A stretch of 22,220 nt of DNA from a virus: positions 1 through 22,220 of IMG/VR virus record IMGVR_UViG_3300027973_000239; one strand, written 5' to 3'. The translations under genes were made by a program, and so were the position numbers. A model generated the notes under the pieces. That model had not been told where the DNA came from. It searched no databases and saw nothing but the letters and a program-made list of their open reading frames with translations. Positions 17,618 to 22,219 of the stretch are shown here, in pieces (position 1 is the stretch's first letter; every line of letters begins with the position of its first letter).

Positions 17618-17954
17618 AGTGTTGGTTTTTAGTGATTAGTGTTGGTTTATGTTGATTTTATGTTGATTTGAAATTCTGTATCCCTTGGTACTGCTAGGTT
17701 TGTGTTAGAATGTTAATTTTTACCCTTCTATAGAGAAAAAAAAAATAAATTATATATATATAGTATATAGTGAACTATATACTGTAAGTATTTTAATTTC
17801 ACGCTAGTTTTGTCTTCAAAATCAACATTTCGACACAAAGTCAATGGTAGTAAGGCTTTCAGAAAAAAAAATCAACACTAAATCAACACGAGTCAACACT
17901 AAAAATAGTTAAACGATTGATTGATAGGTTTTTAGCTGTTTTGATTTCAACACT
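17618..17954. repeat. Inverted arrays of a TCAACACT-type repeat, origin-like region
   Basis: The 344-base gap 17616-17959 holds no gene. On the left, AGTGTTGG occurs at 17618-17625 and 17638-17645 and TGTTGA at 17650-17655 and 17661-17666. On the right the opposite strand form appears: TCAACATT 17822, TCAACACT 17872, TCAACACG 17883, TCAACACT 17893 and 17947. Spacings of about 10-11 or 20 bp place copies on one helix face. Between the arrays lie a run of ten A (with one more 5'), alternating TA, and a palindrome. This is typical of iteron-type replication origins or multi-site operators. The binding protein is not identified. Confidence 0.6.
17762..17783. repeat. Palindrome in the AT-rich core
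   Basis: AGTATATAG-TGAA-CTATATACT is a perfect 9-bp inverted repeat with a four-base loop. It is preceded by alternating TA dinucleotides from about 17750. It lies midway between the two inverted repeat arrays and could be an unwinding site, cruciform or dimer-binding operator. Confidence 0.75.
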
Positions 17955-18321: not shown

Positions 18322-18510
18322 CTAGTTGGTTGTTAAAATTATTTCCGTTAGTATTGAGTTAGTCTCAGCGTCATATAGACCTTCTGATATTCTATTCACT
18401 TGATTTACATCGCTGTCTTCGTCTTGTCTATAAGATACTTCGATGTTTGATAAATTATATCCATTGTATATTAATAAATTCAATTTATCTAATAATTCTT
18501 GTGCGTTCAT
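18322..18510 (-). CDS. Hypothetical small acidic protein (62 aa)
   Basis: Starts MNAQELLDKLNLLIYNGYNL and contains EGLYDAETNSILTEIILTTN. The layout (short N-terminal helix, then EVSYRQ and GLYDxETN...TEIIL strands) recalls small proteins frequent in Bacteroidota phages. Function unknown. The ATG follows a good copy of the start element. Confidence 0.7.
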   Translation of the reverse strand: MNAQELLDKLNLLIYNGYNLSNIEVSYRQDEDSDVNQVNRISEGLYDAETNSILTEIILTTN

Positions 18511-18530
18511 AGTTTCTAGGTTTTAAAGGT

Positions 18531-18704
18531 TTATATTTCGTTATTTAATCTAAGGAATTTCTCGTAATCAGAAAGTAATTTTATTAGACTTGTAGTTTGT
18601 GATTCATTGAATGTCTTACTTAATGTCTTAATAAATTTCTCAGCGTGAAGTTTTCTTGATACTTTCTCAAATGCCTCAAGTGCATTTCCGTTGTCAGATT
18701 TCAT
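18531..18704 (-). CDS. Hypothetical small helical protein (57 aa)
   Basis: Reads MKSDNGNALEAFEKVSRKLH then helices (AEKFIKTLSKTF, LIKLLSDYEKFLRLNNEI). All-helical and charged. Flanked by the start element (CCTAGAACATATG here) and by a 20-base gap to the next gene. No family recognised. Confidence 0.65.
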   Translation of the reverse strand: MKSDNGNALEAFEKVSRKLHAEKFIKTLSKTFNESQTTSLIKLLSDYEKFLRLNNEI

Positions 18705-18723
18705 ATGTTCTAGGGTTAGTTAA

Positions 18724-18873
18724 TTATTTTAATTCTTCAGCGTTCCAAATTCTGCGATGGGTATTTGTTTCGTACAACATACCAATGTAATTGGTTGTTT
18801 TATCGAATGGAATATCTCCACCGCAAAAGATATTATTCCTTACCAAAATTTCGTGGGCTTGTTCTTGTGTCAT
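18724..18873 (-). CDS. Hypothetical small protein (49 aa)
   Basis: Starts MTQEQAHEILVRNNIFCGGD and ends HRRIWNAEELK. The N-terminal helix MTxEQAxxxL resembles that of the 69-aa gene at 19026-19235 (MTTEQAKQVLRNAGYYVDNL), so the two may be distant paralogues. Preceded by a good start element. Confidence 0.65.
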   Translation of the reverse strand: MTQEQAHEILVRNNIFCGGDIPFDKTTNYIGMLYETNTHRRIWNAEELK

Positions 18874-18885
18874 AGTTTCTAAGTT

Positions 18886-19023
18886 TTAAAGGTTACAAAA
18901 AAAATCGTCATCAGAAAATAATGTCGCTATAAAATGTTCGTTTAATTGTTCGATTGTCATCTCTTCTCTATCTGATAATTCAAATAGCTCGTCTTGGTTT
19001 AATTGGCTTATTGTTCTGTACAT
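18886..19023 (-). CDS. Hypothetical small acidic protein (45 aa)
   Basis: Reads MYRTISQLNQDELFELSDRE, then EEMTIEQLNEHFIATLFSDD and ends DFFCNL. Acidic and helical. Its TAA stop lies inside the start element of the next gene (CTTTAAAAC), so termination here and initiation there are tied together. Its own start element is weak. Confidence 0.55.
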   Translation of the reverse strand: MYRTISQLNQDELFELSDREEMTIEQLNEHFIATLFSDDDFFCNL

Positions 19024-19025
19024 GG

Positions 19026-19235
19026 TTACTTAAGTTTAGTGGTTATTATTTCTATACCTACACCTATAGCGTAGAATATCTCTTCGTTGATGTGCTCGTT
19101 ATTAAACGCCATGTCTAGTGCTGACATCTTTTGTTTGTCAGTTAGGCTGTCGTCATCTACATCTCGGATGCTCCATAAATTGTCTACGTAATATCCTGCG
19201 TTGCGTAGTACTTGCTTTGCTTGTTCGGTTGTCAT
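19026..19235 (-). CDS. Hypothetical small protein (69 aa)
   Basis: Starts MTTEQAKQVLRNAGYYVDNL, then WSIRDVDDDSLTDKQKMSAL and a helical end (EEIFYAIGVGIEIITTKLK). The N-terminal MTTEQAKQVLRNAGY-type helix-and-strand unit is common among small proteins of Bacteroidota phages; function unknown. It has a good start element and lies two bases before the next ATG. Confidence 0.7.
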   Translation of the reverse strand: MTTEQAKQVLRNAGYYVDNLWSIRDVDDDSLTDKQKMSALDMAFNNEHINEEIFYAIGVGIEIITTKLK

Positions 19236-19258
19236 AGGTTCTGGGTTTTAAAGGTTAG

Positions 19259-19474
19259 TTACATTTCAATTCCACATTCAATTGCAGACATCTCGTCTAT
19301 GTCCCCGTTCGGCATGATGATGCCTCGGTCGATTAATAGCTTGGCCGTCCGTCCGTAGTGGCCTTGTAAACTCCATGCTGAGCCATCTTTTATTAGTTCA
19401 GCGAACAGGTACACCATACCTGCTCCGTCTAGCATACCACATTCGTATGCTATAATTTGATCAATTTTGTTCAT
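19259..19474 (-). CDS. Hypothetical small protein (71 aa)
   Basis: Starts MNKIDQIIAYECGMLDGAGM and contains LFAELIKDGSAWSLQGHYGR followed by TAKLLIDRGIIMPNGDIDE. This resembles a family of small phage proteins with the phrase LIKxGxAWxLQGxYGRxAxxLI, whose function is unknown. It has a good start element and a 23-base gap to the next gene. Confidence 0.72.
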   Translation of the reverse strand: MNKIDQIIAYECGMLDGAGMVYLFAELIKDGSAWSLQGHYGRTAKLLIDRGIIMPNGDIDEMSAIECGIEM

Positions 19475-19496
19475 AGTTTATAGGTTTTAAATTTGG

Positions 19497-19709
19497 TTAT
19501 CCGTATGTATAGTCGATTAGCTTGTAAGCCTTGAGCATCATTTCGAATGCCTTGACTTGATTCTTTAATTCATTAATATCGATTTCCTCCTCGTCAAGGT
19601 ATCCGTCAATATCGTAGGACATAGCATCAAAATGCACCATCGTGTAGTCCATTAAATCATCTCGTAGGCCAATGTACTTTCGTATTAATTTAATTTCTTT
19701 AGTTTTCAT
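19497..19709 (-). CDS. Hypothetical small helical protein (70 aa)
   Basis: Starts MKTKEIKLIRKYIGLRDDLM and continues through a low-charge middle (YTMVHFDAMSYDIDGYLDEE) to a helix (INELKNQVKAFEMMLKAYKL). All-helical, function unknown. Good start element. Confidence 0.65.
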   Translation of the reverse strand: MKTKEIKLIRKYIGLRDDLMDYTMVHFDAMSYDIDGYLDEEEIDINELKNQVKAFEMMLKAYKLIDYTYG

Positions 19710-19721
19710 AGGTTCTAAGTT

Positions 19722-20018
19722 TTAAAGTTCATATTCGTTTCCATTCTCGTCATAGTACACGTCATCGTCAATCTCTTCCCACTCCGTGTAGTACAAGACA
19801 TCATTGTCGTATGCATATGATAATAATTCATCGTCTGACATTTGTAACATTTTTTCTGCACCTAATTCGTCAAAATCATAGGCACCATCTCTTACGTCAT
19901 CTCTAAGTTCTTTCATGGTTAATTCAAGTGTTGAGGTGTAGTAAGTACCCTCACCCCATACCCACCCTTCGTTCATACCACGTCCCGTAGCATCACATTT
20001 TCTTGCATATTTTTTCAT
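19722..20018 (-). CDS. Conserved small Bacteroidota phage protein (98 aa)
   Basis: Starts MKKYARKCDATGRGMNEGWV, a phrase I recognise from small proteins of Bacteroidota and their phages. The CDATGRGM part has one Cys and does not form a complete zinc site. The C-terminus is very acidic and Tyr-rich (TEWEEIDDDVYYDENGNEYE), so it could mimic nucleic acid or bind basic host proteins, which is inference. Good start element. Confidence 0.72.
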   Translation of the reverse strand: MKKYARKCDATGRGMNEGWVWGEGTYYTSTLELTMKELRDDVRDGAYDFDELGAEKMLQMSDDELLSYAYDNDVLYYTEWEEIDDDVYYDENGNEYEL

Positions 20019-20023
20019 AGGTT

Positions 20024-20212
20024 CTAGTTTATTAGTGAATTTATTTTTCTATCATTCATTTCAATCATGTATAACTTACCATCGCTTTGGTCAAGCAAGA
20101 CTCTTGTGTCTCCACTTTCTATCTTGCCCACATAGGCATACTCGCCAGTCAAGTAGTATATGATTCCGTTTTGGTCAATCGTCTCTGCTGATTGAAGTTT
20201 TAAGATTGTCAT
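20024..20212 (-). CDS. Hypothetical small beta-rich protein (62 aa)
   Basis: Starts MTILKLQSAETIDQNGIIYY and reads LTGEYAYVGKIESGDTRVLL, DQSDGKLYMIEM. Alternating hydrophobic residues suggest a small beta barrel or sheet. It starts after a good element and ends five bases before the next ATG. No family recognised. Confidence 0.65.
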   Translation of the reverse strand: MTILKLQSAETIDQNGIIYYLTGEYAYVGKIESGDTRVLLDQSDGKLYMIEMNDRKINSLIN

Positions 20213-20224
20213 AGGTTCTAGGTT

Positions 20225-20452
20225 TTAAAATGTTAGTTTGTCAAATTCTGTGTACATGTCTGAATACTCCATTGGAAATCTGTCTTTCAATGCTTGGAGT
20301 AAGGTATCGTTGTCGTAGTACTCGTCGTCCCATATGCGTCCTGCACTTACGATTGGTTGTATGACCTTAGCAATTTGGTCATCGTCTAGTGTTGTTACTA
20401 GGTAGAAGTCCTCTTCTGACCACGCTGTTGTGTTGATTCTAATTACTCTCAT
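20225..20452 (-). CDS. Hypothetical small acidic protein (75 aa)
   Basis: Starts MRVIRINTTAWSEEDFYLVT and contains TLDDDQIAKVIQPIVSAGRI and YDNDTLLQALKDRFPMEYSD. The mix of strand and helix with TAWSEEDFYLxT is a familiar small phage pattern, but no function is known. Good start element. Confidence 0.7.
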   Translation of the reverse strand: MRVIRINTTAWSEEDFYLVTTLDDDQIAKVIQPIVSAGRIWDDEYYDNDTLLQALKDRFPMEYSDMYTEFDKLTF

Positions 20453-20470
20453 AGGTTCTAGGTTTTAGGT

Positions 20471-20986
20471 TTATAGTACTCTCTCTCTTACTAGCTCAAG
20501 GAAGTTTGTCTTAGCTACCAACTCTTCGATTGTATCAAATAGGTCATTAGAGCCGTTGTATTGGTATTGTAGTTTTACACCTCGTGAGTATATGTTACCG
20601 AATGAATCTATTACGTCATTTAAACGAGCGACTTTTACCCTTACGAGTACACAACTTTCATGGTGCGATGATTGGGTATCGTCTCGTCTAATCAATACAT
20701 CGGGCTGATCGGAGTGACCATTGTCCCTACCATACTTTTGAACTAAAGCCATAGGCAAGTCTGCTTTGAATAGATTCACTAAACGTATCGCCTCTTCGGT
20801 CGCTAGTTTATCCCATGCCTCCATATCAGCCTCTCTTCTAGCTAAATACTTTTCGATTTCATTTGTCTTATCGTTCAATGCATTTACGTTGATTAGATTG
20901 AACGTTGTAGTTGGTTTGTGCATAGCCTCAATTCTATTGAGTTCGTTTACTAATGCATCAACGATTTGCTGTTGGTTGGTTGTCAT
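20471..20986 (-). CDS. Hypothetical protein (171 aa)
   Basis: The longest gene of this cluster. Starts MTTNQQQIVDALVNELNRIE; residues about 1-85 form helices, residues about 85-171 hold mixed elements (VLIRRDDTQ, CVLVRVKVARLNDVIDSFGN, KLQYQYNGSNDLFDTIEELV). No catalytic motif is seen. It has a good start element (CCCTAGAAACTATG) and lies 18 bases before the next gene. Confidence 0.68.
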   Translation of the reverse strand: MTTNQQQIVDALVNELNRIEAMHKPTTTFNLINVNALNDKTNEIEKYLARREADMEAWDKLATEEAIRLVNLFKADLPMALVQKYGRDNGHSDQPDVLIRRDDTQSSHHESCVLVRVKVARLNDVIDSFGNIYSRGVKLQYQYNGSNDLFDTIEELVAKTNFLELVRERVL

Positions 20987-21010
20987 AGTTTCTAGGGTTT
21001 TAAAGGTTAA

Positions 21011-21184
21011 TTAATCTTGACAAGCATACAATACTTGCGTCAAGCTATTGTATAAGAATTTTCCATTGTATGTCTCGCATCCAAATCGATTGATAGTGAT
21101 GTCGTTATCACTTAGCTGTAGTGTAGTATAAGTTCCTGTGCGTTGACCATAGCTGTCAATATCGCATACATAATAAGTTCTCAT
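21011..21184 (-). CDS. Hypothetical small protein (57 aa)
   Basis: Reads MRTYYVCDIDSYGQRTGTYT, then TLQLSDNDITINRFGCETYN and NSLTQVLYACQD. Three Cys and many Tyr and Thr suggest a small beta protein. It has a weaker start element (ATAGAACTTATG). Function unknown. Confidence 0.65.
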   Translation of the reverse strand: MRTYYVCDIDSYGQRTGTYTTLQLSDNDITINRFGCETYNGKFLYNSLTQVLYACQD

Positions 21185-21189
21185 AAGTT

Positions 21190-21423
21190 CTATTTTTTAT
21201 TTGGTTGAAACATACTCTTTTTAAATCTAATCAATTGACCCTCCGTGTACTTAAGTAGGTCTTGTAGCTTGTCTCTATCAACGTCAATTATGCCGTGTAT
21301 TGGGTGCTTGATGTCGTTGATGCCCACAAAGTTAATGTTGCGGTTCAATTGCTCTCTGATGGTTATCTCTCTGATGTATCCATCGGTCTTGTGGAAGCCG
21401 ATATTGTTCATTCGCTCGTTCAT
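21190..21423 (-). CDS. Hypothetical small basic protein (77 aa)
   Basis: Starts MNERMNNIGFHKTDGYIREI, with HPIHGIIDVDRDKLQDLLKY and a basic end (GQLIRFKKSMFQPNKK). A start element variant (AATAGAAATTATG) precedes it. It ends five bases before the next start. The basic tail could bind nucleic acid; no family recognised. Confidence 0.65.
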   Translation of the reverse strand: MNERMNNIGFHKTDGYIREITIREQLNRNINFVGINDIKHPIHGIIDVDRDKLQDLLKYTEGQLIRFKKSMFQPNKK

Positions 21424-21444
21424 AATTTCTATTTTTTAATAATG

Positions 21445-21507
21445 TTAAATACTCCATACTTGTGGCTTCCTTGAGCCATTAATGATGTATTGCAGTTGAT
21501 ATATCAT
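21445..21507 (-). CDS. Possible 20-aa micro-gene
   Basis: A short frame MIYQLQYIINGSRKPQVWSI starts with an ATGA overlap at the stop of the 31-aa membrane peptide gene and ends 21 bases before the next gene. The overlap and tight fit argue for translation; the length argues against. Very uncertain. Confidence 0.35.
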   Translation of the reverse strand: MIYQLQYIINGSRKPQVWSI

Positions 21508-21599
21508 GGCTTTGTATTTAAGCTAATAGTGACATATATAATCATAGATAATGATAAAATCATTAAGCAAACACCGATATATGTTGTTATATTATCCAT
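21504..21599 (-). CDS. Single-pass membrane micro-protein (31 aa)
   Basis: Reads MDNITTYIGVCLMILSLSMI, then IYVTISLNTKP. One hydrophobic segment (about 7-26) predicts a single membrane pass. The ATG follows a poly-A stretch (AAAAAAAAAGAA) that may serve as an A-rich start signal. It lies next to the lipoprotein gene, so both may act at the envelope. Confidence 0.5.
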   Translation of the reverse strand: MDNITTYIGVCLMILSLSMIIYVTISLNTKP

Positions 21600-21613
21600 T
21601 TCTTTTTTTTTAG

Positions 21614-21826
21614 TTAATTATTAATTATTGCATAGCGTTCGTTAAATTGCTCTTGAGTTACCTCATTATTCTCGATGCCCAAGTTGAACGCCACCTCAGT
21701 GACGAATTCCTCGTTCTCAGGGTTCAAGATGCTGTCAGGCCAATAGCCCGTGCATGTTTCGGTCTCTTTGACCATAGCGCAACCGCTTAGGATTATCATT
21801 GCTATTAAAATTGATATCGTTTTCAT
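21614..21826 (-). CDS. Small lipoprotein (70 aa)
   Basis: The start MKTISILIAMIILSGCAMVK is a lipoprotein signal with lipobox LSGC (Cys16 would be lipidated). The mature part is short and acidic (NPENEEFVTEVAFNLGIENN). The ATG at 21826 is chosen because the recurring start element is directly before it; the frame could extend seven codons upstream. Small phage lipoproteins act in superinfection exclusion or lysis (spanin outer subunit); with no proline-rich region and no spanin partner, exclusion is the better guess, but it is unproven. Confidence 0.78.
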   Translation of the reverse strand: MKTISILIAMIILSGCAMVKETETCTGYWPDSILNPENEEFVTEVAFNLGIENNEVTQEQFNERYAIINN

Positions 21827-21831
21827 AGGTT

Positions 21832-21981
21832 CTAGTTTTGGTACCACGCCTCGTCAAACATGTAGTTATAACGATTCGTGATATAGTTGATAAAATTGTT
21901 TAAGTGACCCTCGTTTGAGAATTTTTTCTTCATAACGACCTGCTTTCCGCTGATGTTTATGAACGTCAGTACTACCTCCAT
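21832..21981 (-). CDS. Hypothetical small protein (49 aa)
   Basis: Reads MEVVLTFINISGKQVVMKKK, then FSNEGHLNNFINYITNRYNY and ends MFDEAWYQN. Its stop TAG lies within the CTAGAACC start element of the lipoprotein gene, and its start overlaps the end of the 35-aa gene by 10 bases. Function unknown. Confidence 0.6.
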   Translation of the reverse strand: MEVVLTFINISGKQVVMKKKFSNEGHLNNFINYITNRYNYMFDEAWYQN

Positions 21982-22079
21982 GCTCTTACTCTTAATTTGT
22001 TAGTTCGTACTAAGATTCCCTCGTTGTAGAAGCCCCAAATTTCGAAGGCTCCATCAATCATGATGATTTTACTAGTCAT
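21972..22079 (-). CDS. Hypothetical small basic protein (35 aa)
   Basis: Reads MTSKIIMIDGAFEIWGFYNE, then GILVRTNKLRVRAWR. A small beta-hairpin-like protein with a basic end. It is the first gene after the hammerhead ribozyme, and its ATG carries a good start element (CCTAGAAACAATG). Ribozyme cleavage would leave it as the first gene on an mRNA with a 24-base leader. Confidence 0.55.
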   Translation of the reverse strand: MTSKIIMIDGAFEIWGFYNEGILVRTNKLRVRAWR

Positions 22080-22097
22080 TGTTTCTAGGTTTTAATT

Positions 22098-22147
22098 GGT
22101 TAAGATGCCTCACGGCATTTCGGTCATTGAGACCTCATCAGTTAACC
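22098..22147 (-). ncRNA. Hammerhead ribozyme (type I)
   Basis: The minus strand contains every conserved hammerhead part in order: stem I 5' strand GGTTAA, core CTGATGA (22141-22135), stem II GGTC-TCAAT-GACC, core GAA, stem III ATGCC-GTGA-GGCAT, cleavage nucleotide C17 at 22104, and stem I 3' strand TTAACC. Stems I, II and III pair perfectly (6, 4 and 5 bp), with the expected G-C pair closing stem II and A15.1-U16.1 at stem III. Predicted cut between 22104 and 22103. The stop codon of the upstream gene (22144-22142) lies in stem I. Bacterial and phage hammerheads are a known class; this site's role is not known. Confidence 0.85.
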
Positions 22148-22219
22148 TCCATGTCTTGCATTAAGTTCATCTTCAAGTGATTTTATTGCAGATTTTAATG
22201 CATTTAAATTCCAAGATAT
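22142..22219 (-). CDS. C-terminal end of a gene cut by the right edge
   Basis: The last 25 codons and the stop are visible, reading ISWNLNALKSAIKSLEDELN then ARHGG. The helix with spaced Leu looks genuine. The start lies outside the window. The TAA stop and the last codons are part of stem I of the hammerhead ribozyme, so translation through the end of this gene would unfold the ribozyme. Confidence 0.6.
   Translation of the reverse strand: MSWNLNALKSAIKSLEDELNARHGG

Follow-up and report, generated by a model that had tools for sequence, protein, structure and literature searches.

A compact type I hammerhead between two small phage genes, and a family of relatives placed in front of start codons

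The window, that is, the whole stretch of DNA analyzed here, spans one IMG/VR contig from end to end (22,220 bases). Close to its last base, on the minus strand, the end of one gene is followed by 52 letters of RNA with the sequence and shape of a type I hammerhead, and then by two small genes. Because the contig ends there, the upstream gene and any further hammerhead copies are lost from view. The same strand continues into SSB, exonuclease, primase/helicase and helicase genes, which makes it reasonable to call the region early; a preliminary description had placed the element between early phage genes, and it does sit in an intergenic position with the replication genes further along the strand. 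The features are:

22142 to 22219, minus strand: end of the upstream gene, ...NALKSAIKSLEDELNARHGG and stop, running off the contig end
22097 to 22148, minus strand: compact type I hammerhead including two capping A residues (sequence, fold and held-out covariance model)
A22148 and A22097, minus strand: the capping A residues (sequence)
22142 to 22147, minus strand: stem I 5′ strand GGUUAA, pairing with 22103-22098 (6 bp)
22142 to 22147, minus strand: the same letters, which also end the upstream ORF (codon GGU, then UAA; frame read from sequence)
22135 to 22141, minus strand: catalytic core C3-A9, CUGAUGA (sequence)
22122 to 22134, minus strand: stem II GGUC/GACC (strands 22134-22131 and 22125-22122; sequence and fold) with pentaloop UCAAU (family loop consensus U-N-A-R-U)
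22119 to 22121, minus strand: core G12 A13 A14 (sequence)
22105 to 22118, minus strand: stem III AUGCC/GGCAU (strands 22118-22114 and 22109-22105) with loop GUGA
22118 and 22105, minus strand: closing pair A15.1-U16.1 (sequence)
22104, minus strand: H17, a C, with the predicted cut on its 3′ side by the hammerhead rule
22080 to 22103, minus strand: predicted 24-nt leader of the downstream mRNA, beginning with the stem I 3′ strand UUAACC and containing AAAACCTAGAAAC
21972 to 22079, minus strand: 35-aa downstream gene MTSKIIMIDGAFEIWGFYNEGILVRTNKLRVRAWR, ATG at 22079
21832 to 21981, minus strand: the 49-aa gene that follows, whose start overlaps the 35-aa gene's stop

Read from 22148 to 22097, the minus strand gives A-GGUUAA-CUGAUGA-GGUC-UCAAU-GACC-GAA-AUGCC-GUGA-GGCAU-C/UUAACC-A, with the slash at the predicted cut. 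The preliminary description had claimed a complete core and three perfect stems. We find all of them, and folding the 52-mer to its energy minimum yields precisely the hammerhead structure (z −2.86). In the window as in the family introduced below, the core residues and A15.1-U16.1 are in place and H17 is not G, while three helices surround the core, open at stem I and backed by covariation, as expected of type I. Hammerheads cut 3′ of H17, a rule that puts the predicted cut between 22104 and 22103, the same place as proposed earlier. The short leader with a recurring start element, also proposed there, corresponds to the 24 nt from 22103 to 22080 in front of the ATG. A leader close to TAACCTTTAAAACCTAGAAACTATGA recurs on the minus strand of the window (18500-22100) before many small genes, whether or not these have a hammerhead. 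The earlier description overlooked that the element belongs to a set of hundreds, that an A caps stem I on either side, and that loop II is conserved.

That description had also suggested a covariance-model search as a check, and here the outcome depends on the model. Rfam scans of the window, at the gathering score and at E ≤ 10, reported no hammerhead family. Nor did Rfam report any hammerhead at gathering score on 28 loci carrying more than 50 relatives; the best sub-threshold scores, on one locus (L052), were 28.1 vs. 56.3 for RF03152 and 22.5 vs. 48.5 for RF00008, and no member tested reached the curated gathering score of RF00163, RF00008 or RF03152. A covariance model built only from alignment A6 (27 sequences from other contigs, excluding close relatives of the window hammerhead, and none with the stem I sequence of the window) finds the window hammerhead as its sole match in the window, with 59.3 bits and an E-value of 1.6e-14. 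The same model also detects the hammerheads of the related contigs L121, L010 and L117 and those of cultured phages. The Rfam models were built on other hammerheads, so that their miss reflects a limit of curated seed sets, and the silence of Rfam owes more to the library than to the RNA in the window.

The family comprises 239 distinct copies in 154 loci. A first seed pattern, applied to viral contigs, required the core, GAAA and CTTAACC, and did not demand any pairing. It gave at least 111 distinct raw matches; among the matches listed, about 100 of 111 have the stems, the others being unrelated sequence. With a strict descriptor, 144 distinct hammerheads are found in 1.2 Mb, whereas 15 decoy descriptors, each with one essential core residue altered, find none in the same 1.2 Mb. 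A second pattern that leaves stems I and III free returned 100 distinct contexts, 92 of which fold as hammerheads; stem I has 6 bp in 91 of these 92, takes 40 different sequences, and has an A on both outer sides in all 92. A 2.2-kb nucleotide query against annotated phages gave no match. We had considered that stem I might be fixed as GGUUAA/UUAACC because UUAACCA is the leader element. This idea fails, since 40 stem I sequences appear once the search leaves stem I free; the uniformity came from the first search pattern. UUAACC does precede some genes that lack a hammerhead in the closest phages, and a local version of the idea is possible.

The evidence for a conserved structure is covariation, which is present in all three stems. 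Alignment A1 (50 sequences) has 137 double changes vs. 33 in shuffles, and A6 has a covariation of 0.73 vs. 0.15 shuffled; the rows of both were not fitted to the model, yet were picked by a descriptor that demands the stems. In A4, which like A2 was fitted to the model and whose pair counts lean toward the structure, covariation is 0.68 vs. 0.135 shuffled, with double changes at all six stem I pairs. Shifting the pair partners by 1 to 3 columns abolishes pairing in every alignment case. The less biased checks are the pairing-free first seed pattern and the pattern with stems I and III free. In copies that fit neither search pattern (two sets, of 36 and 37), G12-A14 and A15.1-U16.1 do not change at all, and H17 is always C or A, never G. 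Variation is seen at N7, in one copy as U4C, and in several as an extra U behind A9. A fixed core amid changing stems is the pattern expected of a working catalyst rather than of a hairpin.

The architecture is just as uniform. An A is found at position 2.7 in 236 of 239 copies and at 1.7 in 232 of 239. A 13-nt stem II hairpin, made of a 4-bp stem and a pentaloop, occurs in 139 of 156 copies, and the loop has the consensus U(100%)-N-A(86%)-R-U(89%). The A caps together with the conserved loop suggest a contact between loop II and the end of stem I. The extra U between A9 and stem II is seen at L121 1480-1532 and at L124 3750-3807 and 4527-4583; as such hammerheads recur in unrelated contigs, this is probably a tolerated variant of the core.

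Position is the other regularity. An ORF of at least 30 aa starts within 70 nt of the predicted cut in 223 of 235 copies (0.36 for random positions, a control that counts only ATG starts where the real set also includes GTG and TTG), and the distance from predicted cut to gene start has a median of 23 nt and an interquartile range of 20-28. On the other side, an upstream ORF ends between −40 and +12 of the first base of the ribozyme in 201 of 234 copies (random 0.23). Whole records carry 1 to 10 copies, always on one strand and usually within a few kb, and none of the 154 loci has copies on both strands. One locus, L190, has a hammerhead before nearly every gene across 3.6 kb. The family has the arrangement of several hammerheads flanking single genes per transcript known from Perreault-type clusters; the window itself has one hammerhead, over dozens of genes. 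Separately, the 82,750-base record L029 has seven hammerheads between 6225 and 11140, at least six of which are followed by a conserved block of about 27 nt, AAAAGT(C/G)AG..GCA(G/C)ACTATAACAGGC.

The genes that follow are small (median 72 aa), and 204 downstream proteins fall into 164 clusters, for which reason we rejected the idea of a cassette that travels with its gene. A conserved RNA in front of non-conserved genes is as expected of a processing site that acts in cis. Few downstream proteins belong to known families. Among them are one ArdC-like antirestriction protein and one Tad2-like anti-Thoeris domain, which suggests regions of host takeover or anti-defence.

Comparison with the closest phages shows both conservation and turnover. 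Relatives of the 35-aa gene are found in L121, L010 and L017/L117, and a hammerhead precedes each of them; stems II and III of these differ from those of the window but are still paired. In L121 and L010 the orthologous site is kept with compensatory changes in the stems. In the closest relative, L121, an extra U follows A9 and might slow the ribozyme. Other genes bear the element in one relative and lack it in another: the MRVIRINT gene (window 20452-20225) has a hammerhead in L117 and none in the window, and the MKTYYVC gene has one in L010 and none in the window. Related phages thus differ in which genes bear a hammerhead, so that no single gene can strictly require processing. Copies at least 90% identical make up 6% of pairs within a locus vs. 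0.9% between loci; near-identical copies before unrelated genes of one phage suggest that new sites arise when the ribozyme itself is copied.

Several carriers have been cultured, with one copy each: the Flavobacterium phages elemoA and elemoB, the Agrobacterium phage OLIVR1, and the pelagiphages HTVC019P, HTVC131P, HTVC201P, HTVC304P and Jormungand of Pelagibacter. One carrier is a Niabella genome, and among 197 bacterial genomes of its family only the carrier itself matches, which led us to reject a prophage reservoir in that family. The single match in 197 also indicates that the model is specific and that the RNA is mainly a phage feature. In the elemo phages, an ATG lies roughly 25-30 nt after the predicted cut. 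Two annotations there overlap the ribozyme and are probably mis-annotations: a start codon inside it (L126 12035, NC_062741.1 gp69), and an antisense ORF across it (L238 1462-1569, elemo89C_phanotate43).

What could the element do? From core and fold we infer self-cleavage of the RNA in the window and of its relatives. By analogy with other hammerheads the cut would fall after C22104. The upstream mRNA would then end in stems II and III with a 2′,3′-cyclic phosphate, and the downstream mRNA would begin with a 5′-hydroxyl and a 24-nt leader holding the translation start signals. To work in the cell, at low Mg2+, a small hammerhead needs a tertiary contact, which the A residues flanking the 6-bp stem I may provide by docking with the U-N-A-R-U loop of stem II. 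The phage may benefit in that its tiny genes could be translated and degraded independently. Given the uniform position in front of unrelated genes, intercistronic processing of the mRNA is the reading that fits best: the compact type I hammerhead probably cuts the polycistronic early RNA of the phage between two small genes. We take the halovirus and prophage precedents (PMC3088659) as support for this reading.

The simplest rival is that a short motif resembles a hammerhead by chance. Hammerhead motifs are indeed short, but when the window was simulated 10,080 times with a first-order Markov model, no equally good one appeared (a looser version did in 11), which agrees with the earlier remark that a chance origin was very unlikely. 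Together with the orthologous sites and the hundreds of covarying copies, the simulations rule this reading out. A structured RNA that does not cleave, acting as an insulator or as a 3′ hairpin that protects the upstream mRNA or exposes a ribosome site, would account for a stable fold placed between a stop and a start. It would have no need for CUGANGA, GAA, A15.1-U16.1 and a non-G H17, all of which are fixed while the stems turn over, and we judge it highly improbable. We also think it very unlikely that the ribozymes serve to circularize RNA or to mobilize genes in the manner of retrozymes. Animal type I hammerheads do sit in retrozymes (PMC7229834), and the near-identical copies within one phage would fit; against this, the downstream sequences of paired copies are mostly unrelated, so that paired hammerheads do not bound a repeated mobile unit. 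Circularization by a phage ligase was rejected, as no RtcB is present in 20 carrier records, although the host could supply one.

A further suggestion is that cleavage is a switch gated by translation, in which a ribosome ending the upstream gene would cover stem I and the core, and the RNA would cut only when upstream translation stops or is sparse. The preliminary description had noted the upstream stop within stem I, and the UAA is indeed there in the window. In the family, the upstream stop is the stem I UAA in 52 of 234 copies and the core UGA in 41 of 234, and most other stops lie within a few nt of the 5′ end of the ribozyme, from where a ribosome footprint could reach the core. Since stops abutting or entering the ribozyme are general in the family, ribosome interference is plausible. 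But dense packing of phage genes alone yields such stops, and the overlap is not a conserved one: the stop position varies over the family, and at the orthologous site in L121 and L010 the stop is upstream of the ribozyme. We consider regulated gating of this kind unlikely, and intercistronic processing stays our preferred reading. Its widest extension is that many phages run a ribozyme-based maturation of their mRNAs, in which a dedicated, compact hammerhead subclass precedes one gene after another (as many as 10 copies in a record), spreads within genomes and cuts early transcripts to short-leader 5′-OH mRNAs, the terminating ribosome gating each cut. This is a tentative proposal and, taken whole, a somewhat doubtful one. 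If it held, mRNA ends would carry a 5′-OH in place of the 5′ phosphates recognised by host decay enzymes.

Clusters of hammerheads in phages, and the idea that they yield single-gene mRNAs, are already known. Prophages carry hammerhead clusters around genes, some of which cut in vitro and in E. coli; the sets of A. tumefaciens, C. scindens and A. caulinodans cleave in vitro, and Perreault et al. (2011) proposed that long phage transcripts are cut to gene-length mRNAs (PMC3088659). As in those clusters, several hammerheads here flank single genes or short blocks. All three types, I, II and III, occur in the 2011 set, about 40% of which uses a pseudoknot between stems I and II (PMC3088659), whereas ours is uniformly type I and combines an open stem I of 6 bp with A caps and the U-N-A-R-U loop II, reaches 10 per record at about 23 nt before start codons, and comes from environmental contigs and a few cultured phages. 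The HHphage hammerhead of the haloarchaeal viruses HF1/HF2 likewise lies just upstream of the start codon of an early gene, at 13 nt, and a mapped 5′ end falls within 3 nt of the cut; it differs in being a core insertion variant of other architecture, in a single copy, in a high-salt virus (PMC3088659). The Rfam families Hammerhead_1 (RF00163), Hammerhead_3 (RF00008) and RAGATH-1-hammerhead (RF03152) have the same catalytic core, and RF00163 also shares the type I topology. Theta ribozymes of gut phages are self-cleaving RNAs that likewise serve as transcript processing signals, but they have an HDV-like fold, are linked to tRNAs, and are not hammerheads (PMC10879173). De la Peña (2017) considered the role of hammerheads in prokaryotes and phages an open question (PMC6155905). 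A literature search over the main texts of openly available papers found none on the compact subclass or on the pelagiphage copies. The compact subclass and its placement at start codons look undescribed; novelty is likely, not certain.

We have, then, a large and uniform covarying set with one consistent map position that the standard RNA library does not report. The cultured carriers make the processing idea directly testable, and the compact architecture of 6-bp stem I, A caps and U-N-A-R-U loop should be of use for structural and engineering work. The signature could find many more hammerheads, and it marks early operons rich in uncharacterised genes, a few of them anti-defence-like.

Elsewhere in the window, a tRNA-like sequence lies on the minus strand at 13521-13469, with an acceptor stem AGTCGGG/CCCGACT, a D arm and a T arm GGGTTCGAGTCC, and no anticodon arm; ARAGORN reports no tRNA for it. 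It is followed by a terminator-like hairpin at about 13410-13378. An Rfam tRNA match stretched over 137 nt in L117 (3954-3818, minus strand) may be the corresponding region. Finally, the intergenic stretch 17640-17890 has repeated GTGTTGA / TCAACA(C) words flanking an AT-rich segment with a T run, and looks like a promoter or operator region.
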